Source: an uncultured Collinsella sp. (GTDB lineage Bacteria > Actinomycetota > Coriobacteriia > Coriobacteriales > Coriobacteriaceae). Taken from it: a DNA stretch of 64,000 bases. The stretch is taken from positions 1 through 64,000 of the forward strand of contig CAKTWK010000002.1 in NCBI GenBank assembly GCA_934630735.1, read 5' to 3'. Every line of letters begins with the position of its first letter. The stretch's first letter is position 1. A program made the translations under genes and the position numbers. The notes beneath the pieces were generated by a model. The model had not been told where the DNA came from. It was given only the letters and a program-made list of their open reading frames with translations, and made no database searches. Below, in pieces: positions 6,543 through 64,000 of this stretch.

Positions 6543-6577
6543 ACCTGCCAAAAAGGGACTGGTTTATTTTGGCAGGT
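6543..6577. repeat. 11-bp inverted repeat upstream of secA
   Basis: Arms ACCTGCCAAAA (6543-6553) and TTTTGGCAGGT (6567-6577) are perfect complements around a 13-base loop containing GGGACTGG. It lies in the 6408-6753 gap between rpmE and secA, which has no gene. It may be a terminator or an interspersed palindrome. Confidence 0.6.
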
Positions 6578-6610
6578 TTTATCTGGGAAAACGCCGTCAC
6601 TCTGCCATTT

Positions 6611-6673
6611 GGTGCAAACCAACCCGTCCCCTTCGCGCCAATCTGGTGCAATGGGAACGGGTTAGCCTGCACC
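6611..6673. repeat. Imperfect 20-bp inverted repeat
   Basis: GGTGCAAACCAACCCGTCCC (6611-6630) pairs with the reverse complement of the stretch ending GCCTGCACC (6652-6673) with about four mismatches. Together with the element at 6543-6577 it fills the gene-free stretch between rpmE and secA. No coding signal was seen here. Confidence 0.5.
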
Positions 6674-6680
6674 AATAAAA

Positions 6681-6716
6681 AGAAAAGGGCCGCGCACCCA
6701 AACGGATGCGCGGCCC
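6681..6716 (-). terminator. rho-independent terminator of rpmE
   Basis: A 10-bp stem GGGCCGCGCA/TGCGCGGCCC (6687-6696 and 6707-6716) is followed on the minus strand by TTTTCTTTTTATT. It sits 38 bases past the rpmE stop. Confidence 0.9.
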
Positions 6717-6753
6717 TTATGCCATGAATGCGAGCGATTCCGCGGCGAGCTAT

Positions 6754-7179
6754 TTACTCAGCAGCCTCGGTGGTCTCGGCCTCGGCAGCGGCCTCCTCGA
6801 CGGGAGCCTCTGCGGGAGCCTCGGCAGCCTGCTTGGCAGCCTCCTCGGCGAACTTAGCGGCACGCTTAGCCTTCTCGGCAGCCTTAGCCTCAGCGGCGGC
6901 CTTGCGAGCGGCCTCGGCCTCAGCAGCCTTGGCGGCCTTGGCAGCCTTGGCCTCCTCAGCCTTCTTGAGCTGGGCGGCAGCGGCGCCACCGAACTTGTCG
7001 GCGAAGCGCTGGACGCGTCCACCGGTGTCGACGAACTTCTGCTGGCCGGTGTAGAACGGGTGGCACTCGTTGCAAAGCTCAACCTTCATCTCGGACACGG
7101 TAGCGTGCGTCTTGAAGGTGTTGCCGCAGGAGCACGTCACCGTGCACTCGACATACTGGGGATGGATACCCTGCTTCAT
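6754..7179 (-). CDS. rpmE: 50S ribosomal protein L31 with long acidic/alanine tail
   Basis: The first ~75 residues are a zinc-binding L31: [20 protein letters not shown], a second Cys pair in [13 protein letters not shown], then [14 protein letters not shown]. The remaining ~65 residues are a low-complexity Ala/Glu/Lys tail, making it 141 residues instead of the usual ~70. Such tails are plausible in high-GC actinobacteria, but their role is unknown. It has its own promoter, a structured leader and a terminator, so it is a single-gene unit. Confidence 0.93.
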
Positions 7180-7199
7180 GGTAGGACTCCTTATTGGTC

Positions 7200-7250
7200 A
7201 GGCGCTGGTTACCGATCAGCGCATAAGGCGTCTTGGTTTCCGACCAAGAC
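7200..7250 (-). promoter_or_regulatory. rpmE 5' leader with two hairpins
   Basis: Between promoter and start codon lie two perfect stems: GTCTTGGT/ACCAAGAC (7230-7237 with 7243-7250) and GCGCTG/CAGCGC (7202-7207 with 7217-7222). Leaders upstream of rpmE that bind L31 are a known class of ribosomal autoregulation; that this is one is inference. Confidence 0.55.
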
Positions 7251-7263
7251 AACAAACTCGGCT

Positions 7264-7292
7264 ATGGTACCACGGCGCCGCGTGTCCCACAA
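7264..7292 (-). promoter_or_regulatory. Candidate sigma-70 promoter for rpmE
   Basis: On the minus strand TTGTGG is followed 17 bases later by TACCAT, about 85 bases before the rpmE start. Spacing is ideal, and each hexamer is an imperfect match. Confidence 0.5.
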
Positions 7293-7365
7293 AAGGTTCA
7301 CGGTCTTTTCGGCACAACACGAGCTGGACCTTAAATATCAACTTCATCCGAACACTCCCCCACAT

Positions 7366-9174
7366 TCATCTCTCGTATGTATCGAGGTATTCCTGCTTGA
7401 GCGTCTGCGAGGACGACTTGATCTTTTCCACGAGCGTGCCGGCTTCGATGAAGTAGAACGAGTTGGTAAGGTCTGCCAGGTCGTCGAGTAGATGGCTTGA
7501 AATGAGCACGCTGCGTCCCCGCGCCACTTCGCTGCGCATCGCGTCGCAGGAGGTTTTCCGTTTTCCCGGATCGAGGCCGTTCAGCGGTTCATCGAGGATG
7601 AGGTACGGGCAATCGGTCGCTATCGCCATGGCAAGCTTTACCTGCTGCTTCATTCCTGTCGAGAGTTTACGGGTCGGCTTGTCGAGATATGGGGAGATTC
7701 CGAGGGAGTCGCAGAGCGAGTCGATGTCGGCGGCCGATTTCCACGCCTCCCTAACGAAAGCAAGGTGCTCGATGGCCGATAGCGTGGGATAGAGATCCGC
7801 GCTGCCCGAAGAGCTCAGGTAGACGAGTTCTGCAAATTCGGCTGATCGACGTTGGCAGATTCCGTCTGCCGCCAGGCTTCCCGAGCGGATGCGGGTGGGA
7901 AATTGGCCCGACAGCGCTTCAAGAAGGGTGGTTTTCCCCGAGCCGTTGGGAGCAACGAGGCCCGCCGCCGTTCCCGGGCTCAGGAAAAGCGACCCGATTG
8001 AAAGTATCGTCGTGCTTCCGTATCCCACGCTCGCGTCTAGAAGCTCGAGCCCATGGTGCTTTTTCGCGGGTCCAGGCTGTTTGGGGGAACGTGTCGCAAC
8101 GGCGCCGACCGTAAAAAAGACCGCGACGTATGCCAGGGCCACGGCAAGCATCGATGCGCTGCCTGAACCGGAGCCAATGAATTCTGTCGGGAAGCATCCT
8201 ACGTAACCCGTTGCCTCGATAGGCGAGAATACGGGCAGTGGCAGGAGCCCGAGCACGGCATTATGCCCTAGTGCCGAATCGGACAATAACGGGAATGCCG
8301 GGGCCGCGACAAGCAGCGCGGAGGTAAGGGGGCCCGCGAGGACGCGCCTCGTTGCGGTCGATAGGACGGCGGAGCAAACGGATATCAAGGTTCCGCCCGC
8401 AAGCAGCGCGAGAAGCAGGGCTGTGAAGACGTTTCCCGCGGTCGTGGTGGCAAGCGCGCCGTCATGGAAGAAGGCGATCGGGTACCCAATTTGCCCGAAG
8501 CCGTTTAGGACCAAGGCGTAAATGCCCCCGGGTGCGAGGCCGGCGAGGAGCATCGCGGTCCCCGCGACGATTATCGAAAACACGATCTGGATAAGGCGCC
8601 GGAATTTGGGCACGGGCGCCTTCGCCGCCAGGGTCCCGGGCCTTGTGGCGCCGAGCACGAGTATCGACGAGAGAAGGAAGGGGATGAAGGGAAGGAAAGA
8701 CGGCGCCGCGGCAATGGCGTAAGGCAGGAAGGAAAGGAATGGCAGGTCGTTTGCGGAGGCCGGGATATCCGTGATGCCGGAGCTGCTCAGGGCGCGGCAA
8801 TATGCGAGCGCTGCGTCATTGGTCTCTCGGTCTCCCACGATGGACCCGGATTGGAAGCCCTCGTCCATGAGCGCGTAGTAGCTCTCGGCAGAATCGAGAA
8901 AGGCGGCGTCGGTTTGAGCGGCAAGGGCGGCGTTCGCGTATCTTGCAAGCTCCGCGTCATCTTGCTGCTCTGGAGATAGGTCTGTGCCGCTGGCCTGGGG
9001 CGCGCGCGTATTGAATGCGTCGACAAAGCCCTGCATGCCCTGTTTCATAAAGAAGGGCCCGTAGATGGGTGAATTGAACGCAATGGGGACGGAAAAGGCT
9101 GCAGCGAGAACGAGCGTACAAATCCATACGGCCTTGTCTCTTAGGATTAGTTTGAGAAGAAGTCGACAGTACAT
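7366..9174 (-). CDS. ABC transporter: permease fused to ATPase
   Basis: This 602-residue fusion has an N-terminal ABC-2-like membrane module: a hydrophobic segment at ~15-30, an extracytoplasmic stretch to ~140, then about five membrane segments to ~360. A C-terminal ATPase follows. The ATPase shows Walker A APNGSGKTT, signature LSTGMKQQ and Walker B LILDEPLNGLD. The permease contains the stretch LAPGGIYALVLNGFGQIGYP, closely resembling segments in the neighbouring permease. It is last in a three-gene leftward operon with a separate ATPase and a double permease. Export is likely; the substrate cannot be told from sequence. Confidence 0.82.
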   Translation of the reverse strand: MYCRLLLKLILRDKAVWICTLVLAAAFSVPIAFNSPIYGPFFMKQGMQGFVDAFNTRAPQASGTDLSPEQQDDAELARYANAALAAQTDAAFLDSAESYYALMDEGFQSGSIVGDRETNDAALAYCRALSSSGITDIPASANDLPFLSFLPYAIAAAPSFLPFIPFLLSSILVLGATRPGTLAAKAPVPKFRRLIQIVFSIIVAGTAMLLAGLAPGGIYALVLNGFGQIGYPIAFFHDGALATTTAGNVFTALLLALLAGGTLISVCSAVLSTATRRVLAGPLTSALLVAAPAFPLLSDSALGHNAVLGLLPLPVFSPIEATGYVGCFPTEFIGSGSGSASMLAVALAYVAVFFTVGAVATRSPKQPGPAKKHHGLELLDASVGYGSTTILSIGSLFLSPGTAAGLVAPNGSGKTTLLEALSGQFPTRIRSGSLAADGICQRRSAEFAELVYLSSSGSADLYPTLSAIEHLAFVREAWKSAADIDSLCDSLGISPYLDKPTRKLSTGMKQQVKLAMAIATDCPYLILDEPLNGLDPGKRKTSCDAMRSEVARGRSVLISSHLLDDLADLTNSFYFIEAGTLVEKIKSSSQTLKQEYLDTYER

Positions 9175-50999: not shown

Positions 51000-52322
51000 T
51001 TACGGCTCCAAAAGCCCTGACATAAAGATGGGCAGATGCAGCACGTCACCATCGCGGTGAAGATTACATTCCGCAAGTACCAGGGCGCAATCGATTCCGT
51101 AGCCCTTCGTTGCCAGTGCGTTATCGAGCGCCGCGTGGGACTTAAAGCTCTTGCCCGATTTGACCTCGATGGCAAACACTTCCCCATCGAATGTCTCTTC
51201 CACAAAATCGAGCTCACCGACCTTTTTGGACGTAAAGTAGCGCAATCTAAATCCATGGGCTTTGAGCTCTTGGGCAACGAAGCCCTCAAACGCCGCCCCC
51301 ATGTTCATGCCAAAGGGGCCTTCTGCCTCCCCATCAAAAACGCCTTGGGCGACCCTTTTGGAATACGACGACATGAGCATTCCGGTGTCCAAGTAAAACA
51401 GCTTAAAGAGATTTCGCTGCTCACCCAATAAAAGGGGTGCCACGGGCGCCGTTACGTTATACACGGGAAGTGCGACACCCGCCTCCGATAACCAGAGAAA
51501 ATGATCTGTCACCTGCGAAAAACGTTTGACACCTTTAATCGATGACAGTTTGAATCGCCTGTTTTTGGAGCCGGCCTCGTTGGGAATCAGATCATAGATA
51601 TCACGTATAACCAAGCGTAGCTCAGGCGGAGCGTACTTTGCGATGTCATCGCGATACAGGGCGTGAAGATCGCGATGGATGTTTCGAACCTCGTCGACAT
51701 TGCGCGTCGCCAAGAAGGAATTGACCGCGTCGGGCATGCCCCCCACCACCACATACTGATGGAACAGATTGAGCAAGCGGTCATACAGATAGCCGGGGAG
51801 CTCCTTTTCGTCCTTTAGACAACCCCTGAGCATGTCAAACGCTCCGGCAGCAACGCCGCTTGCCCAGCAGAACTCCTCAAAGTCGAGTGGGTACATCTGG
51901 ACCTGCTCGACATACCCCACCGGCAGGGAATCGATGCCCTCGAGCTCAACGCCAAGGAGCGATCCGGTAAGGATGTATCGAAAGTCGCCGCGCTGGACCA
52001 GGTATTTGATAAACGTCACTACGTTGGGGCATCGCTGCACCTCGTCGATAACCACAACGGTCTTGTTCGCAACCATCGGCTGCGTTGCAGCAATAGACAT
52101 GCGCATAAGCAGGTCATCCGCGCTTTTTGCCGCCAAAAACGAATCGCGCACGGACGCGTCGGCGATAAGGTCGAACGTCACGACATTTTCGAACGATTCG
52201 CTTGCAAAGACGTTGACCAAATATGACTTTCCTACCTGTCGGGCGCCCTTGACCAAAAGAGCCTTGTTAGGCGACGAGGCAAGCCAAGATTCAAACTGTG
52301 CTTTCGCTTTTCTCTGTAGCAT
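51000..52322 (-). CDS. AAA ATPase with DUF4143 domain
   Basis: This 440-residue P-loop ATPase has Walker A VKGARQVGKSYLVNVFASE, Walker B VVVIDEVQRCPNVV and a sensor stretch RYILTGSLLG. A C-terminal DUF4143 nuclease-like region follows, with a possible PD-(D/E)xK core, ELDFVEETFDGEVFAIEVKSG. Such proteins are common, often in several copies, and their function is unclear. AAGGGG precedes the ATG at 52322. Three 33-bp-phased repeats lie just upstream and may be its operators. Confidence 0.85.
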   Translation of the reverse strand: MLQRKAKAQFESWLASSPNKALLVKGARQVGKSYLVNVFASESFENVVTFDLIADASVRDSFLAAKSADDLLMRMSIAATQPMVANKTVVVIDEVQRCPNVVTFIKYLVQRGDFRYILTGSLLGVELEGIDSLPVGYVEQVQMYPLDFEEFCWASGVAAGAFDMLRGCLKDEKELPGYLYDRLLNLFHQYVVVGGMPDAVNSFLATRNVDEVRNIHRDLHALYRDDIAKYAPPELRLVIRDIYDLIPNEAGSKNRRFKLSSIKGVKRFSQVTDHFLWLSEAGVALPVYNVTAPVAPLLLGEQRNLFKLFYLDTGMLMSSYSKRVAQGVFDGEAEGPFGMNMGAAFEGFVAQELKAHGFRLRYFTSKKVGELDFVEETFDGEVFAIEVKSGKSFKSHAALDNALATKGYGIDCALVLAECNLHRDGDVLHLPIFMSGLLEP

Positions 52323-52359
52323 AAGCGTACCCCTTATTACGTGCTGTTTTAGCATTAGG

Positions 52360-52443
52360 ATACACTTTTCCGTGGTTGTTAGGTGCTCATTTCGACACTT
52401 TTTCTGGATTTTGAAGTGTGTATTACGACACTTTTTCGGATTT
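52360..52443. repeat. Three direct repeats phased at 33 bp
   Basis: Copies with the core ACACTTTTTC (one degenerate, ACACTTTTCC) begin at 52362, 52395 and 52428. The two right-hand copies share CGACACTTTTTC followed by GGATTT. They lie 40-120 bases upstream of the DUF4143 ATPase start. Confidence 0.75.
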
Positions 52444-52495
52444 AAGCCTAACAGCAACCGGCGAAATCAAGCGCCGCCCGCACGTCATTTCGCAA

Positions 52496-52520
52496 GCGGC
52501 GTGCAGCCGTTGCACGCCGC
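52496..52520. repeat. 10-bp perfect hairpin
   Basis: GCGGCGTGCA/TGCACGCCGC with a 5-base loop, in the gap between two leftward accessory genes and next to the interleaved repeats at 52536-52587. Confidence 0.7.
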
Positions 52521-52535
52521 CGCTCAAGCCGCACG

Positions 52536-52587
52536 ATGTCAAAAGGCTGGCACTTGCGCATGCCTTTTGACATGCACAAGTGCCAGC
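52536..52587. repeat. Two interleaved inverted repeats (A-B-A'-B')
   Basis: Pair A: ATGTCAAAAGGC (52536-52547) with GCCTTTTGACAT (52562-52573). Pair B: GCTGGCACTTGCGC (52546-52559) with GCACAAGTGCCAGC (52574-52587), one mismatch that is a G-U wobble in RNA. The arms alternate, so only one full stem or a pseudoknot can form. They begin 10 bases after the stop of the small membrane protein gene. Confidence 0.8.
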
Positions 52588-52596
52588 TGGGTCTAT

Positions 52597-53232
52597 CTAT
52601 GCCGCTCTCAAGAAAATTTCACGCTGAGTGTTAAGGCATTCCCTAAGGCCTTCAACGTCATTCGGTTTCTTTTCGAACAGCTTAAGAACGGCATTGGAGG
52701 CCTTCTCGCCATTCGCCTTGGACAGACGATCGGTGTAGTCGCGCACAGACCTAACAATGTCCTCAAACTGCTCGCCCTTAATTTCGACCGTGAAGCCTTC
52801 CTTACCGCCACTAAGGGCAGTTATGGCGCCTTCCAACCTGTCAATCATCTCGATCGTAAGTTCGCCATCCCCCAAAGCCTTAAGGTATTCCGAGAATGCG
52901 GAGTTAAAGTCTGCCATCCGCTTCTTTCGCAACGCGTCTTCTTTGCTGTGGCGCACGCAAGTCACCCCCGCATAGACGCCTCCGCCGACCGCAGCTACGC
53001 CCGCAACCGCAAGCGCAGCTATAGCAACTTTCTTGTTCTGCTTCGCAAGCTGAACCGCCTGGTCGGCTATACGCAGCGCTTTGTTGGCCCCATTTTGAAC
53101 ATCTGCAGGCTTAAGATGCCGAACAATATGACCTGCGCCGTCGCGCACAACACCTCCCCATTGGACATACTTACCAGTAGCTAGGCCCACCGCTATTTCT
53201 GCGGGAACTTCAAAAGCAACCTGTTGAATCAT
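52597..53232 (-). CDS. Uncharacterised small membrane protein beside an Mrr-like nuclease
   Basis: This 211-residue protein has one hydrophobic segment (VAIAALAVAGVAAVGGGVYA, about 80-100), then a charged, helical domain from 105 to the end with no recognised family. AAGGAGA precedes the ATG at 53232, so this start is preferred over one 9 codons upstream. The start lies 14 bases after the stop of the Mrr-like gene, so the two form an operon. Nuclease plus membrane protein is a common layout for anti-phage systems, but no function can be assigned from its sequence alone. Confidence 0.6.
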   Translation of the reverse strand: MIQQVAFEVPAEIAVGLATGKYVQWGGVVRDGAGHIVRHLKPADVQNGANKALRIADQAVQLAKQNKKVAIAALAVAGVAAVGGGVYAGVTCVRHSKEDALRKKRMADFNSAFSEYLKALGDGELTIEMIDRLEGAITALSGGKEGFTVEIKGEQFEDIVRSVRDYTDRLSKANGEKASNAVLKLFEKKPNDVEGLRECLNTQREIFLRAA

Positions 53233-53246
53233 GGCAATGTCTCCTT

Positions 53247-54242
53247 TTATGCTGGCCACCAGATACGGGTGAGCGGAAGAATGGAACGGGTGTCGTCATC
53301 TGTCTTGTCATAGATTTCGACATAGTGCCGCACGAAGGCATCCAGATCGAGTAGGCGCACGGGAATGTTTGCACGATCCGCCTCGTAGCGCGCCTCTTTC
53401 GTAAAGCCCCCAGTTGACACATACAGGCCACGGTCGCCCGCGCGAAGGCCACCGATAAAAGCACGGACTGCCGGAGCGCCCATGGCGCCCTTACGGTGTT
53501 TGACCTCAGCGACAATGCGGGGAGATTCCAGCCCGAGAGCATCCGGGGACGCTACCACATCGCGACCGCCATCAGGGCCCTTGGGCATAACGCGAGCGCA
53601 GTAGCCCATGGCCTTGAGCAAGCCCGCTACCAAGCGCTCCATATCCTCCCAATCGAGCTGGTTAACGCGATCCTTAATGAGCTCAATACCATTGTCATAG
53701 GTCGCTGCGAGGGTTTCTTCGTCATTTGTCGCGTTGTTATCATCGATGGCGGAATCATTTGAAGCCACCACCGACTTGTCCCTTGCAGCATTCGTGAGAT
53801 CGGCCATGACCTCATTGGAGACAGCGAAGATGGTTTGGATGCCGCCGAGCGAATTTTTAGAGGACGGCGAAAGCACATCACGTGGAGCGGTTTCACCCCA
53901 CTTGACGTCTCGCGTGTAGGTCACTCCGTCCATATCGCAGACGGCAACGCAGGGGCCAGTGATAACGCCAAGGTGATAAAAGCGGCTCTCCGGATCGTAC
54001 ATGACAACGGTCGAACCCGTCGTCATATCGTGTGCAAAACGGTAAACCTGCCCAACGCCTGCCGCGACCTTGCCCTTGCTGTCGCCGGGATGTGCCAGGC
54101 CGTATGCTGCCCTAATCTGCTCGCGATTCATAGCGGCAATATCGGCACCATTGAAATCCCAGCCAATACCTATGACGCCATGCTCGAGCCAGTCGGACGC
54201 ATATACGCCGCCACGACCGGCACGAATCATCCAAGCACCCAC
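53247..54242 (-). CDS. Mrr-like PD-(D/E)xK restriction endonuclease
   Basis: This 331-residue protein has a C-terminal Mrr_cat domain from about residue 205: QLDWEDMERLVAGLLKAMGY, the catalytic Asp in GPDGGRDVVA and ExK in IVAEVKHRKG, then GLYVSTGGFTKEA. The N-terminal half (GVYASDWLEHGVIGIGWDF; VVMYDPESRFYHLGVITG) looks like an EVE/PUA-type module that might read modified bases, a weak guess. Mrr nucleases cut methylated DNA. The start is probably GTG at 54242; a GTG at 54269 and an ATG at 54230 are alternatives. It is the first gene of a two-gene unit. Confidence 0.72.
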   Translation of the reverse strand: MGAWMIRAGRGGVYASDWLEHGVIGIGWDFNGADIAAMNREQIRAAYGLAHPGDSKGKVAAGVGQVYRFAHDMTTGSTVVMYDPESRFYHLGVITGPCVAVCDMDGVTYTRDVKWGETAPRDVLSPSSKNSLGGIQTIFAVSNEVMADLTNAARDKSVVASNDSAIDDNNATNDEETLAATYDNGIELIKDRVNQLDWEDMERLVAGLLKAMGYCARVMPKGPDGGRDVVASPDALGLESPRIVAEVKHRKGAMGAPAVRAFIGGLRAGDRGLYVSTGGFTKEARYEADRANIPVRLLDLDAFVRHYVEIYDKTDDDTRSILPLTRIWWPA

Positions 54243-54572
54243 GCGAAACCTGCCTTTCTGCCATAGCACGACCGTGTTGTGGCACTATGACTTATCTCAA
54301 ATGCCCCAGGCATTGCACCGACAACTTGCCACAGTGCTGGCAAACGGCCAACGATAGCCCCACTTTTACCCGCTTTCATGTAGGTAAGTCTTCGCCACAC
54401 TCATAAGGTGGGGCAGATTCGCCTCGGTTGCCTTCATTTTGTATTTGCCCCCCCCCATTTGTTCTTGTCGCCTGGAATTAAATGTTCACCAATCAACGAA
54501 TTTTACATAGAGGACGCAACGCTATAATGCTGTAAACGCATTTGTATTGCATTTCGAGTGACGGGAGCACAG
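54243..54572. other. Intergenic region with a 9-base poly-C tract
   Basis: No gene was seen. A run of nine C lies at 54449-54457 and a candidate promoter at 54502-54528. The base composition is more AT-rich than the flanks. It separates the leftward Mrr pair from the rightward type I locus. Confidence 0.6.
54502..54528 (+). promoter_or_regulatory. Candidate promoter of the type I R-M operon
   Basis: TTTACA and TATAAT (five- and six-of-six matches) are separated by 15 bases, slightly short, 45 bases before the small RHH gene. Confidence 0.55.
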
Positions 54573-54785
54573 ATGCCTGATAACTACAAGGAACTCATTA
54601 AGAGCAACCCTGACGAAACCGAGATCAGGAGCTTCCTGGTGAACGGTAATCAAGTCTCCGTGACTCTACGCATCCCCGACACCTTGCGCGACGCAGCGAA
54701 GGAGGAAGCGGCGCTGCGAGGCATGAGTTTCTCCGCCTTCGTGCGCACCTGCATGATCGAAGAGCTCGCGAAGAAAGGGGCATGA
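54573..54785 (+). CDS. Small ribbon-helix-helix-like protein
   Basis: This 70-residue protein contains QVSVTLRIPDTLRDAAKEEA, then LRGMSFSAFVRTCMIEELAK, a beta-strand plus two-helix pattern typical of CopG/Arc DNA-binding proteins. GGGAG lies 5 bases before the ATG at 54573. It overlaps the next reading frame by ATGA and heads the hsdM operon, so it may be an autoregulator of the restriction locus. It could instead be an orphan antitoxin; no toxin is adjacent. Confidence 0.65.
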   Translation: MPDNYKELIKSNPDETEIRSFLVNGNQVSVTLRIPDTLRDAAKEEAALRGMSFSAFVRTCMIEELAKKGA

Positions 54786-55182
54786 GCATGATCCGGGTCA
54801 AGACTCTCACTGTCCAGCTCATAGACGCGCAGCCGGACCGTATCCGCATCTGCCGCATCGACGGCGAGTCGCTCGTGACCGTCGTCATTCCGAGGGAGGA
54901 CCTCGCCGAGGCGAAGTCGCTACCGAACATCCCGTAGCGCGGCGTCTACTACCTGCTCGACGAGGACCACGGCAACTGCTGAAAAACGCGAGCGTCGCGG
55001 CCGTGCGCAGGGAAATCTTCGGCGATTCGGGCGGCATCGCAGAACTCGCCGAGGACCTCGAGTTCCCGACGCCCAGCGCCGCGGCGGTGTTCGTGCTCGG
55101 CGGCAGCCAGAACGGCTGGACCGAATGGGTAAGCGACGACGGAGAAACACTCAACCAAGTCTATAGAAGTGAGGAAAACTAG
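54782..55182 (+). pseudogene. Remnant of a GIY-YIG/DUF4357 protein
   Basis: The first 51 codons (MSMIRVKTLTVQLIDAQPDR onward) end at a TAG at 54935-54937, and the frame then continues RGVYYLLDEDHGN, resembling the start of a GIY-YIG domain. After a second stop and a frame change, a different frame encodes SAAAVFVLGGSQNGWTEWVS, resembling DUF4357, and runs to a stop just before hsdM. The nuclease core that should lie between is missing. This is a decayed gene with at least one nonsense change and an internal deletion. Confidence 0.65.
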
Positions 55183-57744
55183 ATGAACAAGCAGCAGCTG
55201 GCCTCCAAGATATGGGAGTCCGCCAACAAGATGCGTTCCAAAATCGAAGCTAACGAGTACAAGGACTACATTCTGGGATTCATCTTCTACAAGTTCCTAT
55301 CCGAGACCGAGGTTGCCCGCCTGAAGGCGCGCGACTTCGTCGAGGAGGACCTGCCCAGCCTGGTGGAAGACGACGAGGAGACGGTCGAGTTCGTCAAGGG
55401 CGAGTGCGGCTACTTCATCGCCTACGAGAACCTCTTCTCCACCTGGGTCGCCAAGGGCGGCGACTTCGAGATATCGAATGTGCGCGACGCGCTTTCCGCC
55501 TTCAGCCGCAATATCGATCCTGCACGCAAACGCGTCTTCGACGGCATCTTCGACACGCTGCAGACTGGCCTTTCCAAACTCGGCACCGACGCACGAAGCC
55601 AGTCCAAGGCTGCTCGCGACCTCATCTACCTCATCAAGGACATCCCGATGGACGGTCGCCAGGACTACGACGTGCTCGGCTTCATCTACGAGTACCTCAT
55701 CAGCAACTTCGCCGCCAACGCCGGTAAGAAAGCCGGCGAGTTCTACACGCCGCACGAAGTGTCCATGCTCATGAGCGAGATAGTCTCGTGGCACCTAGCT
55801 GGACGCGAAAACATCACCATCTACGACCCCACGAGTGGATCTGGCTCGCTGCTTATCAATATTGGCAAGGCAGTGGCGCGACGCAACGGCGACCCCGACT
55901 CCATCAAGTATTATGCGCAGGAACTTAAGGAGAACACGTACAACCTCACACGCATGAATCTGGTCATGCGCGGAATACTCCCCGACAACATCGTGGCGCG
56001 CAATGGCGACACGCTCGAAGACGATTGGCCCTGGTTCGATACGGTCGAGAACAAGGATGAGACCTACAATCCACTGTTCGTCGATGCCGTGGTGTCGAAT
56101 CCGCCCTACTCCCAAAACTGGGATCCGGAAGACAAGGAACTCGATCCGCGCTTCAAGTTTGGCGTTGCCCCTAAATCCAAGGCCGATTACGCTTTCCTTT
56201 TGCATGATTTGTACCACTTGCGCCCCGACGGCATCATGTGCATCGTTCTGCCCCATGGCGTGCTGTTCCGCGGCGGCGAGGAGGGCGCTATTCGCAAGAA
56301 CCTGGTGGAGAATCGTCATATCCAGGCCATCATCGGACTCCCTGCCAACATCTTCTTCGGTACGGGCATCCCGACCATCGTCATGGTGCTTCGCAAGCAG
56401 CGCGAGAGCAGCGACGTGCTGGTCGTGGATGCGTCGAAGCACTTTGTGAAGGAAGGCAAGAACAACAAGCTGCGCGCGAGCGATATACGCCGCATCGTGG
56501 ACGCGGTGACGACCGGGGCGACCGTTGAAAAGTTCAGCCGTCTGGTGACTATCGACGAGATACGCGCCAACGATTACAACCTCAATATTCCGCGCTATGT
56601 GGATTCGTCCGAAGCCGCTGAGAGCTGGGACGTGTACGCCACCATGTTCGGTGGGGTTCCGAAGTCCGAGGTCGACGCTCTCGACCGCTACTGGAAGGTG
56701 TGGCCGAACCTGAAGGGTCAGCTTTACGGCGATGGCGGCGGGTCGTGCTTTGCGGTCGTGGCAGACGACGTGGCGGCAACGATAAAGACCAACGCCAACG
56801 TCGTCTCATTTCTGGGCGGCTATCGGGATGCACTGTCGCATCTGCCTGCTGAGCTGCAGAAGAGGTTGGTGGACGGTGCGTCGCAGGTCGACGCCGTGGC
56901 CGAAGAAGAACATATTGCGGCGCAACTTCACGATGCCCTTTCCGATATCGCGCTTGTTGACGAATATGATGCCTATCAGGCTCTTGATGATGCATGGACG
57001 GGCATTTCCGGTGACCTCGAGGTTATTCAAGCCGAGGGCAGGGAAGCCGTGCGTAAAGTCGATCCAAATATGGTGATTAAGAAGAAGAGCGGCAAAGACG
57101 TTGAGGTGCAGGATGGCTGGACGGGCCGCATTTTGCCGTTTGCGCTTGTCCAAGAGCAGCTGCTCGCTGATGATGTCGAGGAAATTACCGCGTACGAATC
57201 CCGTTTGAATGAAATATCTCAAGAGCTTGACGAGATTCTTGAGAATCTTGATGAGGAGGAGAAAGGCTCGAGCGATGTTTTTGACGATGACGGCGTGCTT
57301 GTGGCGGCATCCCTCAAGAAAGCCGTGAAGAGCATCGGCAAGCATCCGAATGGCGGCTTTGAGATGGCGCTTGTTCGTGCTCAGACTCTGCTCGATGAGG
57401 AGAAAGACCTCAAAAAGGCAAGCAAAAAGGCGCTTGTTGCGCTCGAAGAGACGACAAAAAAGGTTATTGAGGGCTTGACTGATGTCCAGTGTGACGAATT
57501 GCTGGCTGCGAAATGGATTGAGCCGCTGCAGTCTGATTTGCTCGAACTGCCCAATGCCGTTATAGGCGACTTCATTGCGAAGATTGTGGCGTTGAATGCA
57601 AAGTACGCGACAACCTATTCGGACGTGTGCAATCAGATTAATGAGGCGGAAAACGAACTGGCAGCGATGTTGGGCCAGCTCACGGGCAATGAATACGATA
57701 TGGCGGGCATTGCTGAGCTGCGGAAACTGTTGGGAGGTGAATAG
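55183..57744 (+). CDS. hsdM: Type I restriction-modification methyltransferase subunit
   Basis: This 853-residue M subunit methylates adenine at the site chosen by HsdS. HsdM_N spans about 1-150 (ASKIWESANKMRSKIEANEY). The N6-methyltransferase core follows, with EFYTPHEVSMLMSEIV, the SAM-binding DPTSGSGSLLINIGKAV and catalytic NPPY in VVSNPPYSQNW. A C-terminal extension of ~370 residues, charged and coiled-coil-like, makes it longer than the common ~520. GAGGAAAA precedes the ATG at 55183. HsdS follows one base after the stop. Confidence 0.95.
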   Translation: MNKQQLASKIWESANKMRSKIEANEYKDYILGFIFYKFLSETEVARLKARDFVEEDLPSLVEDDEETVEFVKGECGYFIAYENLFSTWVAKGGDFEISNVRDALSAFSRNIDPARKRVFDGIFDTLQTGLSKLGTDARSQSKAARDLIYLIKDIPMDGRQDYDVLGFIYEYLISNFAANAGKKAGEFYTPHEVSMLMSEIVSWHLAGRENITIYDPTSGSGSLLINIGKAVARRNGDPDSIKYYAQELKENTYNLTRMNLVMRGILPDNIVARNGDTLEDDWPWFDTVENKDETYNPLFVDAVVSNPPYSQNWDPEDKELDPRFKFGVAPKSKADYAFLLHDLYHLRPDGIMCIVLPHGVLFRGGEEGAIRKNLVENRHIQAIIGLPANIFFGTGIPTIVMVLRKQRESSDVLVVDASKHFVKEGKNNKLRASDIRRIVDAVTTGATVEKFSRLVTIDEIRANDYNLNIPRYVDSSEAAESWDVYATMFGGVPKSEVDALDRYWKVWPNLKGQLYGDGGGSCFAVVADDVAATIKTNANVVSFLGGYRDALSHLPAELQKRLVDGASQVDAVAEEEHIAAQLHDALSDIALVDEYDAYQALDDAWTGISGDLEVIQAEGREAVRKVDPNMVIKKKSGKDVEVQDGWTGRILPFALVQEQLLADDVEEITAYESRLNEISQELDEILENLDEEEKGSSDVFDDDGVLVAASLKKAVKSIGKHPNGGFEMALVRAQTLLDEEKDLKKASKKALVALEETTKKVIEGLTDVQCDELLAAKWIEPLQSDLLELPNAVIGDFIAKIVALNAKYATTYSDVCNQINEAENELAAMLGQLTGNEYDMAGIAELRKLLGGE

Positions 57745-57745
57745 C

Positions 57746-58993
57746 GTGACGGAAAAGACTAATGTACCCGAAATTCGTTTTGCCGGTTTTACGGACCCTT
57801 GGGAACAGCGTAAGTTGGGGGAATTGCTTCTTTTCCAAAATGGTTTTAATGGCTCAAGCGAGTCATTTGGAAGCGGGATTCCGCTTATCAGTGTCATGGA
57901 TGTTCTTGATGATGAATTCATTACGCACGAGACAGTAAGGGGCAAAGCTCGCCTGAATTGCGAAGAAGCTAGCCGCTATTGTGTTGAGTACGGTGATGTA
58001 CTGTTTCAGCGCAGCTCGGAAAATCAGGAGGATGCCGGAACGTCGAACGTGTATCTTGACCAGCATGTTTCATCCGCTTTCGGAGGATTCGTGATAAGAG
58101 GTAAAAAAGTCGATGAGTATAACCCTATTTTCATTAAATATCTTCTTGGTTCCTCTTTTATTCGCGAGCAAATTACTCACAGAGCTCAGGGTGCTCAACA
58201 TATCAACGTGTCGCAGGATACCCTAGCCGATGTTGTTCTCTTGATGCCCTCCATGCGCGAACAGGAGGCTGTCGGATTGGTTTTCCTCCATCTCGATAAC
58301 CTCATCACCCTTCATCAGCGTAAGCATGACAAGCTCGTTCAGCTGAAGAAATCGATGCTTGATAAGATGTTCCCCAAGCCGGGTGAAACTGAGCCCGAAA
58401 TTCGCTTCGCCGGTTTTACGGACCCTTGGGAACAGCGTAAGTTGGGCGAGCTTTGCACTATTTCTAAGGGGTATGGCTACAGCAAAGCCGACATTAAGGA
58501 TGCTGGCACTCCACTGATCTTGTATGGGCGCCTATATACCCAATATGAATCACGTATTGACGACGTGGATACTTTTGCCGTTGAGCAAGAGGGATCGCTT
58601 CTTTCAAAGGGTAACGAAGTAATCGTTCCCGCATCCGGGGAAACCGCAGAAGATATTGCTGTTGCATCATCCGTGCGCAGGTCAGGAGTCATTTTTGGCG
58701 GCGATTTGAACGTCGTGACTCCAGTAAGCAAGCTTGATCCAGACTACATCGCGCTTGCTATAACGTATAGCAAAGCCCATGACGATTTAGCAAAGCGAGC
58801 ACAAGGAAAATCAGTCGTACATGTCCATGGCAACGACATCGCTGAGGTTGAGGTCTCTTACCCGTCGGAAAGCGAGCAGAAGCGCATATCTTCGGTTGTT
58901 CTCAATCTCGATTCCCTCATCACCCTTCATCAGCGTAAGCTTGAACTGCTGAGGAATACTAAGAAATCGCTGTTGGAAAGGATGTTCGTCTAA
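57746..58993 (+). CDS. hsdS: Type I specificity subunit, expressed copy
   Basis: This 415-residue HsdS has two target-recognition domains, each opened by EIRFAGFTDPWEQRKLGE and closed by LITLHQRK. The first module spans about 57820-58300 and the second about 58447-58915. GTG at 57746 follows GGAGGT by 7 bases and is one base past the hsdM stop, so the pair is co-translated. The repeats around each module also occur in inverted copies downstream, making this the expression site of a shufflon. A terminator follows at 59031-59066. Confidence 0.94.
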   Translation: MTEKTNVPEIRFAGFTDPWEQRKLGELLLFQNGFNGSSESFGSGIPLISVMDVLDDEFITHETVRGKARLNCEEASRYCVEYGDVLFQRSSENQEDAGTSNVYLDQHVSSAFGGFVIRGKKVDEYNPIFIKYLLGSSFIREQITHRAQGAQHINVSQDTLADVVLLMPSMREQEAVGLVFLHLDNLITLHQRKHDKLVQLKKSMLDKMFPKPGETEPEIRFAGFTDPWEQRKLGELCTISKGYGYSKADIKDAGTPLILYGRLYTQYESRIDDVDTFAVEQEGSLLSKGNEVIVPASGETAEDIAVASSVRRSGVIFGGDLNVVTPVSKLDPDYIALAITYSKAHDDLAKRAQGKSVVHVHGNDIAEVEVSYPSESEQKRISSVVLNLDSLITLHQRKLELLRNTKKSLLERMFV

Positions 58994-59030
58994 TAACTAT
59001 CGCGAGTTGCTTCTTGTTTCGAGCTCCAGA

Positions 59031-59066
59031 ACCGCCGATTTCGCCATGTCGAGTCGGCGGTTTTTC
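59031..59066 (+). terminator. Terminator after the expressed hsdS
   Basis: ACCGCCGA/TCGGCGGT (59031-59038 with 59054-59061) is followed by TTTTC, 38 bases after the hsdS stop. Confidence 0.8.
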
Positions 59067-59113
59067 GCTCCAGCGAGGAAAATATTGTCGTGCGACTTAC
59101 TGTTGGGCTGTCA

Positions 59114-60120
59114 CTGATGAAGGGTGATGAGGGAGTCAACCTTAGACAAGCAATCGCCAATCGTCTCACACTCCAACTCGCTGCGAGGACAATCGACCAG
59201 CGTATTTCCTGAGTTCATCCCCATTGATAGAATCAAAAGTCGAACCAGCGGAAACGGTCGACCAATATCCCTCAGCTTCTTTCTTAGATAGGGTCTGAAA
59301 CAGAAACTCATTGCCGGCAATTCCAGCGACACCGCGGCCAAGGACCACGTCATAAGTGGTTTTTCCCATTGCGCCGACGGGAGCGCGAACGCTCATGATT
59401 AGATCTCCAGATTTGGCTGTCCTTGTGATCTCCGTTGTCCAAACGCGAGGAGAAACCCAGCCATCTTTTAAATCGGCGTTCCCCTGAACGAGAACTGCAT
59501 CGTTTGGATTGTCCGTGTAGCAAGCTCCATTTGGGGATTGTCCCATTGTTACAGGCGCAATCTCACCCAGCTTACGCTGTTCCCAGACGAGAAGATGCGT
59601 GAACAGCCGCTTACGGCGCTTACGCTGATGAAGGGTGATGAGGGAGTCGAGTCGGTCGAATTGTTCACCAATGAGCTTCTGTTCAGCTACCGAAGGCATA
59701 CTAATTTCGCTCTTCAACAATTTATCGAAGAAGAAATAGAGCCTGACGCCGCCCTCTTGTAACATTTCGATTTGCTGCGTAAACAACCGCGTTTTGAACC
59801 AATGCCACAGAAAGCGATCGTCGCAGGTTTTGTCAGTCTGGAAGACTTCGTATAGGGAACTAACAATTACATTTCCGCTGGTAGATTGATAGCCAATTGA
59901 ACCAACATTGATTCTGGCGGGGTTGTACGCAAAGTTTTTCGGTTCGACAATCCAATAGCTTGTTTTATCAGCCTCGTGCATCGTTCCACCGTTTTCGAAC
60001 TGTTCGTCCTGAGGGACGAAGCCACGATCGTTAGTCACGGAATAGCTAGGTAGTTCAAGATTCTCCGAGTTCCTGATTCCGGATGCGGTGACAAAATCAA
60101 CAAACTTACGCTGTTCCCAA
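59114..60120 (-). pseudogene. Silent inverted hsdS cassette with two recognition modules
   Basis: Read leftward, this copy begins at WEQRKFVDFVTASGIRN with no start codon: an in-frame TGA lies four codons before. The first module ends at LITLHQRKRRKRLFTHLLV, where a second WEQRKLGEIAPVTMGQSP module follows. Near 59205 an extra A shifts the frame; in the shifted frame it continues NTLVDCPRSELECETIGDCL and ends LITLHQ-stop. Lack of a start and promoter fits a storage cassette brought into expression by inversion, not simple decay. The frameshift may reflect silence or sequencing error. Confidence 0.85.
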
Positions 60121-60148
60121 GTGGTTATTCAAATTGGACGACTCCATC

Positions 60149-60737
60149 TTGGGAACAGCGTAAGTTGGGCGAGGCCGCCACTATTGTGGGCGGCGGCACG
60201 CCGAGCACAAATAACGATGCGTACTGGGATGGCGATATAGACTGGTATTCGCCCGCCGAATTGGGCGAGCAGGTGTACGCCGACAGAAGTGTTCGAAGGA
60301 TAACCCAGGCTGGTTACGATAGCTGCTCGGCAACATTGCTTCCAGCTGGTAAAACAATTCTCTTTACAAGTCGTGCGGGCATTGGCAATACAGCGATCCT
60401 TCGCAGGTCAGCATGTACAAACCAAGGCTTCCAGTCTTTAGTCGTGAACGATGATACCGATGTGTATTTCGTCTACTCCATGACCGATCGAATCAAGAAG
60501 TTCGCTGAACAGAAAGCTTCTGGATCAACCTTCCTAGAGATATCTGGAAAGGGTCTGGCGGCCGGAGAATTCGCCTTTCCTTCAAAGGATGAGCAGACTG
60601 CAATAGGGTCCATGTTCAAGCAACTTGACCATCTCATCACCCTTCATCAGCGTGAGCCGCAATTTACTGATATGGGTTATATGAGAGTAGAAAGGGCTCT
60701 CATGACAATGTCGATGTCCTTGTTTTCAAGCTCTTGA
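60149..60737 (+). pseudogene. Silent fifth hsdS recognition module
   Basis: This promoterless half-HsdS begins at the repeat encoding SWEQRKLGEAATIVGGGTPS and ends LITLHQREPQFTDMGY. Its single recognition domain includes WYSPAELGEQVYADRSVRRI. The first ATG-like start is not preceded by a ribosome site. Its 3' end overlaps the recombinase 3' end by 61 bases in antisense. It runs in the same direction as the expressed hsdS, so it reaches the expression site only through two inversions or a direct-repeat exchange. Confidence 0.8.
60636..60660. repeat. Left 25-bp inverted repeat flanking the recombinase gene
   Basis: This matches the reverse complement of 61631-61655 at 24 of 25 positions (core CTTCATCAGCGTGAGCCGC). 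It includes the LITLHQR repeat plus the GAGCCGC extension found only in this pair. Confidence 0.85.
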
Positions 60738-61606
60738 ATGACGTGAAGATAAGTTTCCTGGGTAGTAGTCATGCTTGCATGGCCGAGCCTTCTCGATACG
60801 CTCGCTATGGATACGCCAGCAAACAAGAGAAGTGATGCATGTGTGTGGCGCAAGCCATGGACGGATATAACTGGTACCCCGACGTTTTTGCAGTGACGCG
60901 CTAGAACACTGTTTGCTGTTGAGTTATATACCTTGCCCTTAACGAATATTGGCTCAGACGGGGGGAGATTCCTCAATAGACCGGAGAGTTGCATGATTAG
61001 TTGCCAATCGAGCTGAACTTTCCGCACTGACGAGGCGTTTTTCGTGGGGACAAAGCCGCCGTCATTCTTGTAGTCCCAGGTTTTGTTTACGGAAAGCGTT
61101 TGATGGGCGAAATCGAAGTCCTCGGGGGTGAGGCCTAGCGCCTCGGAGAAGCGCAGGCCTGTTTTGGCGACGATAAGGATGAGCCAGTCCCAACTTGGCT
61201 CGCTTGTTGACAAGTCAAGATCGCCGAGCATGGCATGGAGTTCGAACTGGTTGAGGTATTTTATCTTCTTTGCCCGCGGTTGCTTACCCTTGATGATTGC
61301 CTTTCGCGTAGGATCGCGCGGAATGAGTCCCTCGTCGACAGCGTCTAGGATCGCTCCTTTCAGCTGATGGTGAAAATCCATGGTCGTTTGCCGCTCGTGA
61401 TGCTCAGCATAGCCATTTATGAGCCGCTGGTACGAGGTTCGGTCCAAATCCTTGATCCTGAGGTTAGGAACAAGCTTGGCTAGCCAAGATTGGGTGAGCC
61501 GATATTTCCCCATCGTGACTTCGCGGATGGCCCCTTCTTTATAGACGCTAACCCATTGCGAGTAGTAATCGCAAAAGAGAGAGTCTTCGGTGATGGCAAT
61601 GAGCAT
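60677..61606 (-). CDS. Tyrosine recombinase of the hsdS shufflon
   Basis: This 309-residue phage-integrase-family enzyme has an N-terminal SAM-like core-binding domain (MGKYRLTQSWLAKLVPNLRI) and a C-terminal catalytic domain: Arg in KTGLRFSEALGL, Lys in PTKNASSVRKVQ, HGLRHTHASLL, RRLGHAS and Tyr in TQETYLHV. GGAGG precedes the ATG at 61606. It lies inside the type I locus between silent hsdS DNA and hsdR, and the whole gene is bounded by inverted repeats, so it is the likely agent of hsdS inversion. Confidence 0.9.
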   Translation of the reverse strand: MLIAITEDSLFCDYYSQWVSVYKEGAIREVTMGKYRLTQSWLAKLVPNLRIKDLDRTSYQRLINGYAEHHERQTTMDFHHQLKGAILDAVDEGLIPRDPTRKAIIKGKQPRAKKIKYLNQFELHAMLGDLDLSTSEPSWDWLILIVAKTGLRFSEALGLTPEDFDFAHQTLSVNKTWDYKNDGGFVPTKNASSVRKVQLDWQLIMQLSGLLRNLPPSEPIFVKGKVYNSTANSVLARHCKNVGVPVISVHGLRHTHASLLLFAGVSIASVSRRLGHASMTTTQETYLHVIQELENKDIDIVMRALSTLI

Positions 61607-61630
61607 TATTTGCCTCCTTCATCATGTGTG

Positions 61631-61655
61631 GCGGCTCACGCTGATGAAGGATGAT
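61631..61655. repeat. Right 25-bp inverted repeat flanking the recombinase gene
   Basis: The partner of 60636-60660. In the leftward frame it encodes ILHQREPP, an hsdS 3'-end remnant lying 8 bases beyond the hsdR stop, so a specificity gene once ended here. Confidence 0.85.
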
Positions 61656-61663
61656 GATGCCGC

Positions 61664-64000
61664 TCACTCGTCGATGTCGAAGCCGCCTTTCAGGATAAAT
61701 CTCTTGAGAAGCGCCGCAGCCCGGGTGTTCACCTTGAATGGCGGCAGGCTCTTGCCTTCCTTCTGCTCGAAGAAAGCTTTGGCGCGGACTTTGTCAACCG
61801 AGTCTTTCAGGTCGTCGAAGCGTCCGAATTCGTTTATGTTCGATTCAGTCAAGTCAAGTGCCACCATGGCGGTGAGAAGGTCGCCATCTATGCCGAGGGC
61901 TTCGACAACGCGCTGTACCTGAGCATTTTTGGCCTTGCAGGCATATGACGTAATGTAGTCCCTCAGCGTCATGCCCTCCTCAAGGGTTGCATCGCCGCGC
62001 TCCACGTCGTGCAGAAACAGCTCCGCGAAGCGCTGGTCATCTTGGCTCAAAGACGCAAAAGAACGGTGAAGCTCCTCGCGCGCCGCCGCGAGGCCCTCGT
62101 CATCCTGTTCTAGGCACTTTAGCCATTTCTCAAAGTTCGAGTTCATGTAATCGCTGTCAATGAGGCCTGTGTCGATTTCCGTAATGTGCCCGTCCAACTC
62201 GTAGGGTGCATCGGGAGCATCGCCCGGGGTACCGCCAGAGAAGAGCTCTTTGTAGCGCTGCACGAGGACAAGATAGGTTCGCTCGTCGATGACGGGTTGG
62301 ACGAGAACGGACTCGCTGAGTTGCGAGCCCTCTTTCGGTTCTTCCCTGAACTCGTAGGTATCCTGTTCCCATGTGAAGCCCTGTACCTTCGCGGCCTCAA
62401 GGAACTCGTTAAGCTCGACGAATTCCTTCGCGAACTTGCGCCTGGCCTCCTGCGATGCGGGAAGCTTCGAGAGGTCTCCCACGCCAGCGGCCTCGAAAAC
62501 CATGAGTATTTCCTGGAGGCGCGTATCCATCAACGCAATATTCTCCGGTAGCTTCTGGACGAACATATCGAGCGGGCGGTCTCCCGAATACAGCTTCACC
62601 GCCGCTTCGATATAGCCCTTCATAGTATGGGGTCGACGGTAATAGCGAATCGTGCCGAAAGGCTTGTCGGGCCCAAACAGGCGGTTCGTGCGGCTGAACG
62701 CTTGGATGATGCTCTCGTAGTCGATTACCTTGTCGAGATAGAGCGTGTTAAGCCATTTGGAGTCGAAGCCCGTGAGCATCTGATCAACCACGATGAGCAG
62801 GTCGATGCGGGAATCACGGTTGGTGTCGACGTTGACGTAGGGTTTCTTGTGGGACAGACGAGCCGAGATATCCTTCTTCATGGCGGGCCATGTGGGGATA
62901 GTGAATTCCTGGCCGTATGCCTTGTTATAGTCTTCTATGAGCTCGACCAGAGCGTCTTCCTTTACCGTGGAGCCGGCGTTGTTGTCGATGCTCGGGTCGA
63001 AAAGGGCAGTCACCCTCATCTGCGGGGCGCGCTCCTTGAAGGCTCGGTAGTAGTCGATCGCCTCTGGGATGGAGCTCGTCGCCAGGATTGCATGGAACTT
63101 GTTGCCGTGGGAGAGCACCGGAAAGCGGCGCAGGATGTCCTCGACAACCTTTCCGTGATGCGGGGTATCGGGCCAGTATTGGGCGCGAGTAAGGAAATCT
63201 TCGATTCCCTTGATATGGTTACCAGCGCCGTCGACCATCGGCCCCACGGGAACCTTTGCCGAGTCCTTATAGTAGTAGAAAACTTTGCTCTTTCGGTCGT
63301 CGGAAATGGCTTCGGCGACGGTTGCGGCTTTCGCCTGCTCTAGGGCAACCGCTTCGCGCACGTCATAGTCATCGAACGTCGTCACCATGTAGGGGTCGAA
63401 GCCCAGCACATTGCCGTCGCGGATGCCGTCGGCGATGCTGTATCGGTGCAAGCATTCGCCGAACACCATGGCCGTGGTCGATCCCTTCTTCTGATTCTCG
63501 TCGAGGATTGGCGTTCCCGTGAAACCGAAGAAGAGGGCATTGGGGAAGGCACGACGTATGTCCTGGAGCATATCGCCGAAGGTAGATCGGTGGCACTCGT
63601 CAATGATAAATACGATACGTTTGCCAGCCAGGCGGTCGAGCTCGGCTTGGGTGATCCCCGTCTCGCCGACCTTCAAGTTGCTCATCTTTTGGATAGAGGT
63701 GACGATAAGGCGATTCTTGGGGTCGTCACTAGCGAGCTTGGACCTGAGGACCTGCGTATTCTCAGTGCCCTGCACGTCGTCGGCGTCGTCAGCGAAGGAG
63801 CGGTACTCCGAGAGCGACTGCGTGCCCAACTCGATGCGGTCCATTAGGAACACGACCTTGTCGGCATCATGGGAATCAGCGACAAGTTGGGCCGATTTAA
63901 AGCTGGTCATGGTTTTACCGGAGCCGGTGGTGTGCCAGATATAGCCGCCGGGACGACCGGGCGTGCTGCTGTGCCGCGGCTCGTCCCATTTGCATCTGCG
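61664..64000 (-). CDS. hsdR: Type I restriction endonuclease subunit (partial)
   Basis: The motor/nuclease subunit translocates DNA and cuts it. The 5' part is beyond the window; the visible frame begins upstream of an in-frame ATG at 63910 and includes Walker A in IWHTTGSGKTMTSFKSA. Other motifs are FIIDECHRSTFGDM, FGFTGTPILDENQ, LLIVVDQMLTGFDSKWLNTL and IIQAFSRTNR. The helicase C domain is followed by the HsdR C-terminal helical region, ending at residue GGFDIDE. It is convergent with hsdM-hsdS, an unusual orientation. Confidence 0.95.
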   Translation of the reverse strand, partial: RRCKWDEPRHSSTPGRPGGYIWHTTGSGKTMTSFKSAQLVADSHDADKVVFLMDRIELGTQSLSEYRSFADDADDVQGTENTQVLRSKLASDDPKNRLIVTSIQKMSNLKVGETGITQAELDRLAGKRIVFIIDECHRSTFGDMLQDIRRAFPNALFFGFTGTPILDENQKKGSTTAMVFGECLHRYSIADGIRDGNVLGFDPYMVTTFDDYDVREAVALEQAKAATVAEAISDDRKSKVFYYYKDSAKVPVGPMVDGAGNHIKGIEDFLTRAQYWPDTPHHGKVVEDILRRFPVLSHGNKFHAILATSSIPEAIDYYRAFKERAPQMRVTALFDPSIDNNAGSTVKEDALVELIEDYNKAYGQEFTIPTWPAMKKDISARLSHKKPYVNVDTNRDSRIDLLIVVDQMLTGFDSKWLNTLYLDKVIDYESIIQAFSRTNRLFGPDKPFGTIRYYRRPHTMKGYIEAAVKLYSGDRPLDMFVQKLPENIALMDTRLQEILMVFEAAGVGDLSKLPASQEARRKFAKEFVELNEFLEAAKVQGFTWEQDTYEFREEPKEGSQLSESVLVQPVIDERTYLVLVQRYKELFSGGTPGDAPDAPYELDGHITEIDTGLIDSDYMNSNFEKWLKCLEQDDEGLAAAREELHRSFASLSQDDQRFAELFLHDVERGDATLEEGMTLRDYITSYACKAKNAQVQRVVEALGIDGDLLTAMVALDLTESNINEFGRFDDLKDSVDKVRAKAFFEQKEGKSLPPFKVNTRAAALLKRFILKGGFDIDE

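Follow-up and report, generated by a model that had tools for sequence, protein, structure and literature searches.

A type I restriction-modification locus of an uncultured Collinsella with the features of an hsdS shufflon and a recombinase gene between inverted repeats

Genes, modules and repeats of the locus

The window analysed here is a stretch of 64,000 nt from an uncultured Collinsella sp. (GCA_934630735.1, contig CAKTWK010000002.1, positions 1-64,000), studied by sequence analysis only, and the subject is its type I restriction-modification (R-M) locus. The gene order is hsdM-hsdS, followed by three silent modules that encode target-recognition domains (TRDs), a tyrosine recombinase gene (int) and hsdR. 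The type I gene set is present, with hsdM, hsdR (cut by the window end) and one expressed hsdS adjoining hsdM, its start directly behind the hsdM stop. An earlier sequence-only reading had described a shufflon with an adjoining tyrosine recombinase, and the Pfam matches to HsdM, Methylase_S, Phage_integrase and HsdR-type domains (Table 1) agree with it. Its count of one expressed hsdS and three silent modules, two inverted and one direct, also holds: of the five modules in total, M1 and M2 form the expressed gene, M3 and M4 lie on the minus strand and M5 on the plus strand. It called hsdR convergent, which is correct towards hsdM-hsdS but not towards int, as hsdR and int run in the same direction, with the hsdR stop (61664) just before the int start (61606).

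Every module spans one copy of a repeat, RepA, to one copy of a second repeat, RepB. With up to two mismatches permitted, RepA (TGGGAACAGCGTAAG) was found in five copies, all of them exact, where the chance mean is 0.03 and none of 100 shuffles gave five. RepB (CCCTTCATCAG) has five exact copies and one with a single mismatch (chance mean 1.04; six copies in 0 of 100 shuffles). RepA codes for WEQRK and RepB for LITLHQRK, both conserved HsdS motifs, and CAGCGTAAG is common to the two repeats. The proposal that five and six repeat copies bound the modules is right in its counts, which are far above chance, but the sixth RepB (61641) bounds no TRD; together with the RepB of M5 (60640) it forms an inverted pair around int. 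The silent hsdS material bears inverted repeats of the expressed hsdS, and a site-specific recombinase is encoded at the locus. The two site classes do not differ between N- and C-terminal TRDs, which lets any module fill either half of HsdS. The head-to-head RepA pair at 60103..60166 is a potential small inverton of its own.

The linker between M3 and M4 measures 57 nt, compared to 126 nt in the expressed hsdS (counted from the RepB CAG to the last base of RepA). Across the window and 80 related loci, the linker measures 126 nt in 37 cases and 57 nt in three (the window's M3-M4, L006 and L008); one further linker is 56 nt long, and seven are 75-93 nt. Two database proteins, P0040 and P0046, carry M4 in frame; relative to these the window's M4 (59107-59585) is frameshifted, and both a sequencing error and real decay fit.

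Table 1. Features of the hsd locus, in window coordinates.
Feature	Position	Strand	Evidence or remark
hsdM, type I methyltransferase, 853 aa	55183..57744	+	Pfam N6_Mtase 1.7e-101, HsdM_N; NCBIfam hsdM above cut-off
Expressed hsdS, 415 aa: M1 + M2, 36-aa central linker, C-terminal tail RKLELLRNTKKSLLERMFV	57746..58993	+	Pfam Methylase_S
Module M1, N-terminal TRD	57800..58325	+	
RepA1	57800..57814	+	exact
RepB1 (CCCTTCATCAGCGTAAG)	58308..58324	+	exact copy at 58308
Module M2, C-terminal TRD	58427..58940	+	
RepA2	58427..58441	+	exact
RepB2	58923..58939	+	exact copy at 58923
Silent module M4	59107..59585	-	reading frame shifted
RepB of M4	59114-59124	-	exact copy at 59114; TGA directly after its CAG
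RepA4	59571..59585	-	exact
Short in-frame linker between M3 and M4	59586..59618	-	
Silent module M3	59618..60119	-	open frame
RepB3	59619..59635	-	exact copy at 59625
Head-to-head RepA pair, 19-nt perfect arms, 26-nt spacer	60103..60166		inverted-repeat scan
RepA3	60105..60119	-	exact
Silent module M5	60150..60657	+	open frame; Pfam Methylase_S
RepA5	60150..60164	+	exact
Recombinase cassette, inverted RepB pair, 27 nt, 96%	60634..61657		inverted-repeat scan
RepB5, inner boundary of recombinase cassette	60640..60656	+	exact copy at 60640
Tyrosine recombinase int, 309 aa	60677..61606	-	Pfam Phage_integrase 8e-18; alignment to solved integrases
RepB-int, noncoding, between hsdR stop and int start	61635..61651	-	one mismatch in 11-mer, copy at 61641
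hsdR, stop at 61664, 5' end outside window	61664..64000	-	Pfam T1R_D3-like, SWI2_SNF2, EcoR124_C

Conservation of the sites and rearrangement among relatives

I consider it very likely that this locus is a type I R-M shufflon, in which sites with the core CAGCGTRAG are recombined by the adjacent tyrosine recombinase and silent TRDs are moved into the expressed hsdS. The recombinase would act on these sites at the start (RepA) and end (RepB) of each module, and inversion between opposed RepA or opposed RepB copies would bring a silent TRD into either half of hsdS, so that another DNA sequence would be methylated by HsdM and restricted by HsdR. Inversion at RepB would moreover swap the 3' end of hsdS, supplying a helix tail, a third TRD or int, and the recombinase gene, bracketed by RepB, would itself be invertible. 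I infer that the catalyst is this recombinase, that living cells do switch and that methylation changes with it; a population could then hold many methylation specificities.

A different explanation is that the repeats are merely the conserved coding motifs that they do encode, that TRDs are moved by homologous recombination or gene conversion, as the domain movement reported within specificity genes of Helicobacter pylori may illustrate (PMC3077401), and that the integrase is a bystander. I regard this as highly unlikely in view of how the motifs are spelled. In a set of 81 loci, the window and the best 80 of 336, TGGGAACAGCGTAAG accounts for 152 of the 156 WEQRK motifs, although this 15-mer is one of 48 synonymous spellings, and 113 of the 133 LHQRK motifs have the single spelling CTTCATCAGCGTAAG. 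The near-invariant choice extends to loci of low GC content (<42% GC, n = 28, spanning 28-42%), of which 19 have a WEQRK motif, with 33 of the 36 copies being the same 15-mer. The noncoding sites flanking int have the same core as the coding sites, and the inverted pair around int exceeds a pooled 99% null in 60 of the 81 loci (see below). Recent transfer could help to keep spellings identical, against which the recombinases diverge to about 70% identity across these loci. The near-uniform synonymous spelling thus indicates that the sites are conserved as DNA itself.

The arrangement of modules differs between the window and its relatives, with breakpoints at the repeats. In strain TF06-26 (L005), the hsdM side follows the window collinearly over 52421-57818, at 95.3% identity, to a point four bases beyond RepA1; the TRD that comes after RepA1 is 29% identical to M1 as protein. 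The int-hsdR side is 98.6% identical, and M5 is present at 98% but inverted. RepB is where two TF06-26 contigs begin, of which one carries the hsdM side and the other the int side, and the module adjoining int is absent from the window, so module content differs as well as order. In C. stercoris (L008), relatives of M5 (97.6%) and M2 (88.9%) occupy other positions and orientations.

Database proteins extend this comparison. Three protein searches, with M1-M2, M5 and M3 as queries, gave 7395, 2243 and 2763 matches, and the best 120 of each comprise 349 distinct HsdS-related proteins, in which modules were assigned at ≥90% identity; the M1-M2 query is biased to M1. Of the 20 possible ordered hetero-pairs of M1-M5, these listed proteins contain at least 10, the window's M1-M2 included: M1-M2/M2-M1, M1-M5/M5-M1, M1-M3/M3-M1, M3-M5/M5-M3, M1-M4 and M5-M2, which means that four module pairs are found in both orders. 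It had been proposed that either or both halves of HsdS can be exchanged through the two repeat classes, and that module order should be compared in related genomes; the TF06-26 and C. stercoris arrangements, the pairs found in both orders and the conservation of the repeats as DNA all speak for that exchange. By sequence comparison, the evidence for shuffling is strong.

TRD modules also seem to move from genus to genus: the HsdS proteins P0123 and P0197, named Bifidobacterium adolescentis and B. bifidum, contain M5 at 97-98% identity (98% in B. adolescentis).

Several points weigh against the shufflon interpretation. Some mosaics may reflect transfer, since modules are common to several genera, and the mosaics are evidence across strains and genera, some of them from Bifidobacterium, and not within a clone; the case for ongoing inversion, too, is drawn from comparison of different strains and species. 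The homo-pairs M1-M1, M2-M2, M3-M3 and M5-M5 occur among the listed proteins, and inversion alone cannot make them. Loss occurs as well, as the locus in genome G001 has an hsdS frame with a single TRD adjoining int. Not every module is usable, the M4 frame being lost before its RepB. A codon control with Collinsella hsdS from genomes in which no int was found is empty, with no WEQRK-like or HQ[RK]K motif in its five loci (L129, L130, L133, L134, L137). Finally, the longer repeats of the pneumococcal SpnIII system can shuffle without its recombinase (PMC6620402).

The M4 frameshift, the TGA right after the CAG of the M4 RepB, the mismatch in RepB-int and the single-TRD locus of G001 would also suit a real shufflon that is frozen or decaying in the window's strain, with no current switching. 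I consider this unlikely: int is full length, its alignment to a solved integrase reaching through the catalytic region, four modules have open frames, and the close strain TF06-26 differs in arrangement. That the array is an artefact of modules misjoined during assembly is barely credible. Short repeats do break assemblies, and the TF06-26 contigs end there, but the same kind of array is present in a 63-kb contig (L007) and in a complete genome (L008) of relatives.

The locus was modelled with sites as symbols, inversion within one class only, all sites equal and direct repeats inert. From the window, the model reaches 38,400 arrangements, among them every one of the 20 ordered two-TRD genes that have the long linker and tail; if M4 is unusable, 12 ordered pairs remain. 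A clonal gut commensal could hold up to 20 (or 12) ordered two-TRD specificities. This range matters for phage defence, for gene transfer and for expression that depends on methylation, in Collinsella and, via shared modules, in Bifidobacterium. The single-TRD frame of G001 suggests that deletions do occur, contrary to the inert direct repeats of the model.

The recombinase gene and its flanking repeats

The 60 loci referred to above were obtained by comparing the best inverted pair between the 110-nt flanks of int to mononucleotide shuffles (20 per locus). With a stricter definition, namely the core CAGCGTRAG with at most one mismatch within 60 nt, both int flanks carry a site in 48 of the 81 loci and at least one flank in 72, while both flanks did so in 0 of 1620 shuffles. 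In the divergent loci L068, L078 and L084 the int-flanking pair persists, with other sequence. These counts bear on the idea that the integrase is part of a mobile element inserted next to the locus, without any action on hsdS. Among solved structures its nearest relatives are other integrases, one of them from a prophage, and more distant relatives are found on phages and plasmids. I nonetheless find this idea most improbable, given the strict core in both flanks of those 48 loci and the presence of hsdM or hsdR beside int in 56 of the 81, several of the rest being short contigs.

In the 48 loci with both sites, the upstream site ends a median of 28 nt (minimum 19) before the int start codon, a gap that fits a ribosome-binding site but hardly a promoter. 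It is this short distance, and not a promoter scan, that argues for the absence of a promoter inside the cassette. The scan of 57600-64000 gave one promoter-like site (shuffle mean 4.9) and six terminator-like sites (shuffle mean 6.9). The sole promoter-like site (9/12 matches, minus strand, 61680-61651) overlaps the hsdR end, directly upstream of int and just outside RepB-int; the match is weak and could be chance, and if it is real, read-through from hsdR is not needed. As int follows hsdR co-directionally, its transcript likely comes from hsdR read-through or from this promoter-like match, and both would stay behind when int flips. The source of transcription may then change with each flip, being hsdR read-through (or a promoter just outside the site) in the window's arrangement, hsdM-hsdS read-through when int is joined to hsdS, or none, with a presumed effect on int's own expression.

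Inversion at RepB would also yield other forms of HsdS. Inversion between RepB2 and RepB3 is predicted to give M1-M2-short linker-M4, ending in LITLHQ and a stop, although in the window the M4 frameshift would interrupt it; such an event would give a three-TRD HsdS without the C-terminal helix. Three WEQRK-type motifs are present in 23 of the 349 listed proteins, and five of these (P0004, P0049, P0074, P0210, P0216) end exactly at LITLHQ. In P0292 the recombinase is joined in frame to a two-TRD HsdS, which shows the other junction; OFF switching was weighed here against promoter exchange. The three-TRD proteins, P0292 and G001 thus indicate that the 3' end of HsdS, too, is altered by RepB events.

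From these observations I put forward, as a tentative proposal, that the int cassette may be promoterless and self-invertible, with its own sites just outside the ribosome-binding site, that its flips and RepB inversions may adjust how fast the locus shuffles and let HsdS alternate among two-TRD, three-TRD and tail-less forms, and that this design may be present in records of several phyla. The orientation of int varies between Bifidobacterium species: in the six loci, among 14 examined, that are anchored by both the chromosomal flank and hsdR, int points one way in L017, L018, L021 and L022 and the other way in L015 and L016. On the other side, 21 of the 81 loci do not exceed the pooled null, and in five of the 60 that do (L017, L020, L022, L048, L067) the matched upstream copy is 76-93 nt off, so that it probably represents the RepB of a module. 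In the window and L005-L009, int is co-directional with hsdR throughout, with no flipped copy found. Over all layouts and species mixed, int is on the same strand as hsdR in 37 and on the opposite strand in 12 of the 49 loci with hsdR detected; relative to hsdM, the figures are 21 and 20 of 41. Whether a shufflon sets its own rate by flipping its recombinase gene is made testable by the bracketed recombinase.

Between the fixed flanks of the Bifidobacterium loci, hsdM is inverted in L022 only, compared to L017, L018 and L021, which indicates that inversion can also affect the methyltransferase gene.

The wider recombinase family seems not to share the bracketing. In eight plasmid regions of Ligilactobacillus salivarius, the neighbours of the related recombinase are adhesin-type genes (seven regions) or a comparable gene set (one region) rather than hsdS, and no inverted site pair was seen by eye in its flanks. 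Two of these plasmids, S35 (L119) and S91 (L121), are identical over 16.9 kb save for a 2115-bp inversion (5781-7895). It spans a GbpC/Spa-domain gene and neighbouring genes, lies beside a recombinase about 55% identical to that of the window, and has an inverted repeat of about 29 bp.

Relation to known systems and genomic setting

The locus is of a known kind, the hsdS shufflon or epigenetic inverton. The hsd system of Mycoplasma pulmonis has two site classes, and its sites and gene order differ from those of Collinsella. In the survey of epigenetic invertons by Huang (2020), inverted repeats inside hsdS, often with a recombinase, were reportedly found in many species.

Shuffling of hsdS by inversion with a recombinase of the locus has been described in S. 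pneumoniae, S. suis and M. pulmonis (PMC6620402, PMC7096588, PMC10790761, PMC4948785). In M. pulmonis, the tyrosine recombinase HvsR inverts hsdS, and some inversions lose activity (PMC4948785). The S. pneumoniae SpnIII/cod locus with CreX (PsrA) is alike in its expressed hsdS beside silent partial hsdS, its inverted repeats and its own tyrosine recombinase (PMC6620402, PMC7096588). A 10-bp core, ATTATGGGAA, is common to three repeats there, and creX changes orientation, with expression 2.6-fold higher in one of the two (PMC6620402). By eye, ATTATGGGAA is not in the window repeats, which share CAGCGTAAG instead. The Collinsella locus differs in its CAGCGTRAG core, in that all five modules share two short site classes, so that TRDs swap N and C positions, and in that int has its own bracketing pair, at most about 40 nt away, and runs with hsdR.

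S. suis SsuCC20p is similar in that two classes of 14-bp repeats, a left and a right one, flank TRDs that switch places, and in that switching depends on the locus recombinase (PMC10790761). Unlike Collinsella it has four TRDs and other repeats (TAAATCATCATTTA and TAAATGATGATTTA, not matched by the window repeats by eye), and the available parts of that report describe neither a bracketed recombinase nor a three-TRD form (PMC10790761). The same report found xerD inverted in five S. agalactiae strains that had lost SsuCC20p-type repeats. A 2020 survey of duplicated hsdS by Atack found inverted repeats in hsdS, often with a recombinase, in many species, and its main text mentions neither Collinsella nor Bifidobacterium (PMC7394358). 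The nearest published hint of a bracketed recombinase may be an inverton group in gut bacteria that overlaps hsdS, with nearby tyrosine recombinase genes in 'regulatable' and 'non-regulatable' orientations (PMC11892184). Within the portion of the open-licence literature searched, no Collinsella locus of this kind was found, and no hsdS shufflon whose recombinase cassette is bracketed by sites.

The suggestion that the layout is a distinct variant therefore survives in part: two repeat classes (PMC10790761), and a shared core with recombinase reorientation (PMC6620402), were already published. The bracketing of the recombinase and the outcomes with three TRDs or a swapped tail are additions to what the sequence-only reading contained.

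Pieces of a 5-kb stretch outside the locus match at 96-98% in 20 of 43 Collinsella genomes, while the recombinase was found in four of the 43, three of which (G001, G004, G019) are among those 20. The presence of the recombinase in so few matching genomes points to a patchy locus, as would be expected for horizontally moving defence genes. The neighbourhood is probably a defence island.

Beside the locus lies an Mrr-like restriction endonuclease gene (53247-54269, minus strand; Mrr_cat; PADLOC PDC-S02 and type IV models). The protein encoded at 51000-52457 on the minus strand matches the PADLOC candidate defence family PDC-S01 (5.1e-163), and a small protein encoded upstream of hsdM (54558-54785, plus strand) has a sub-threshold match to DUF6290.

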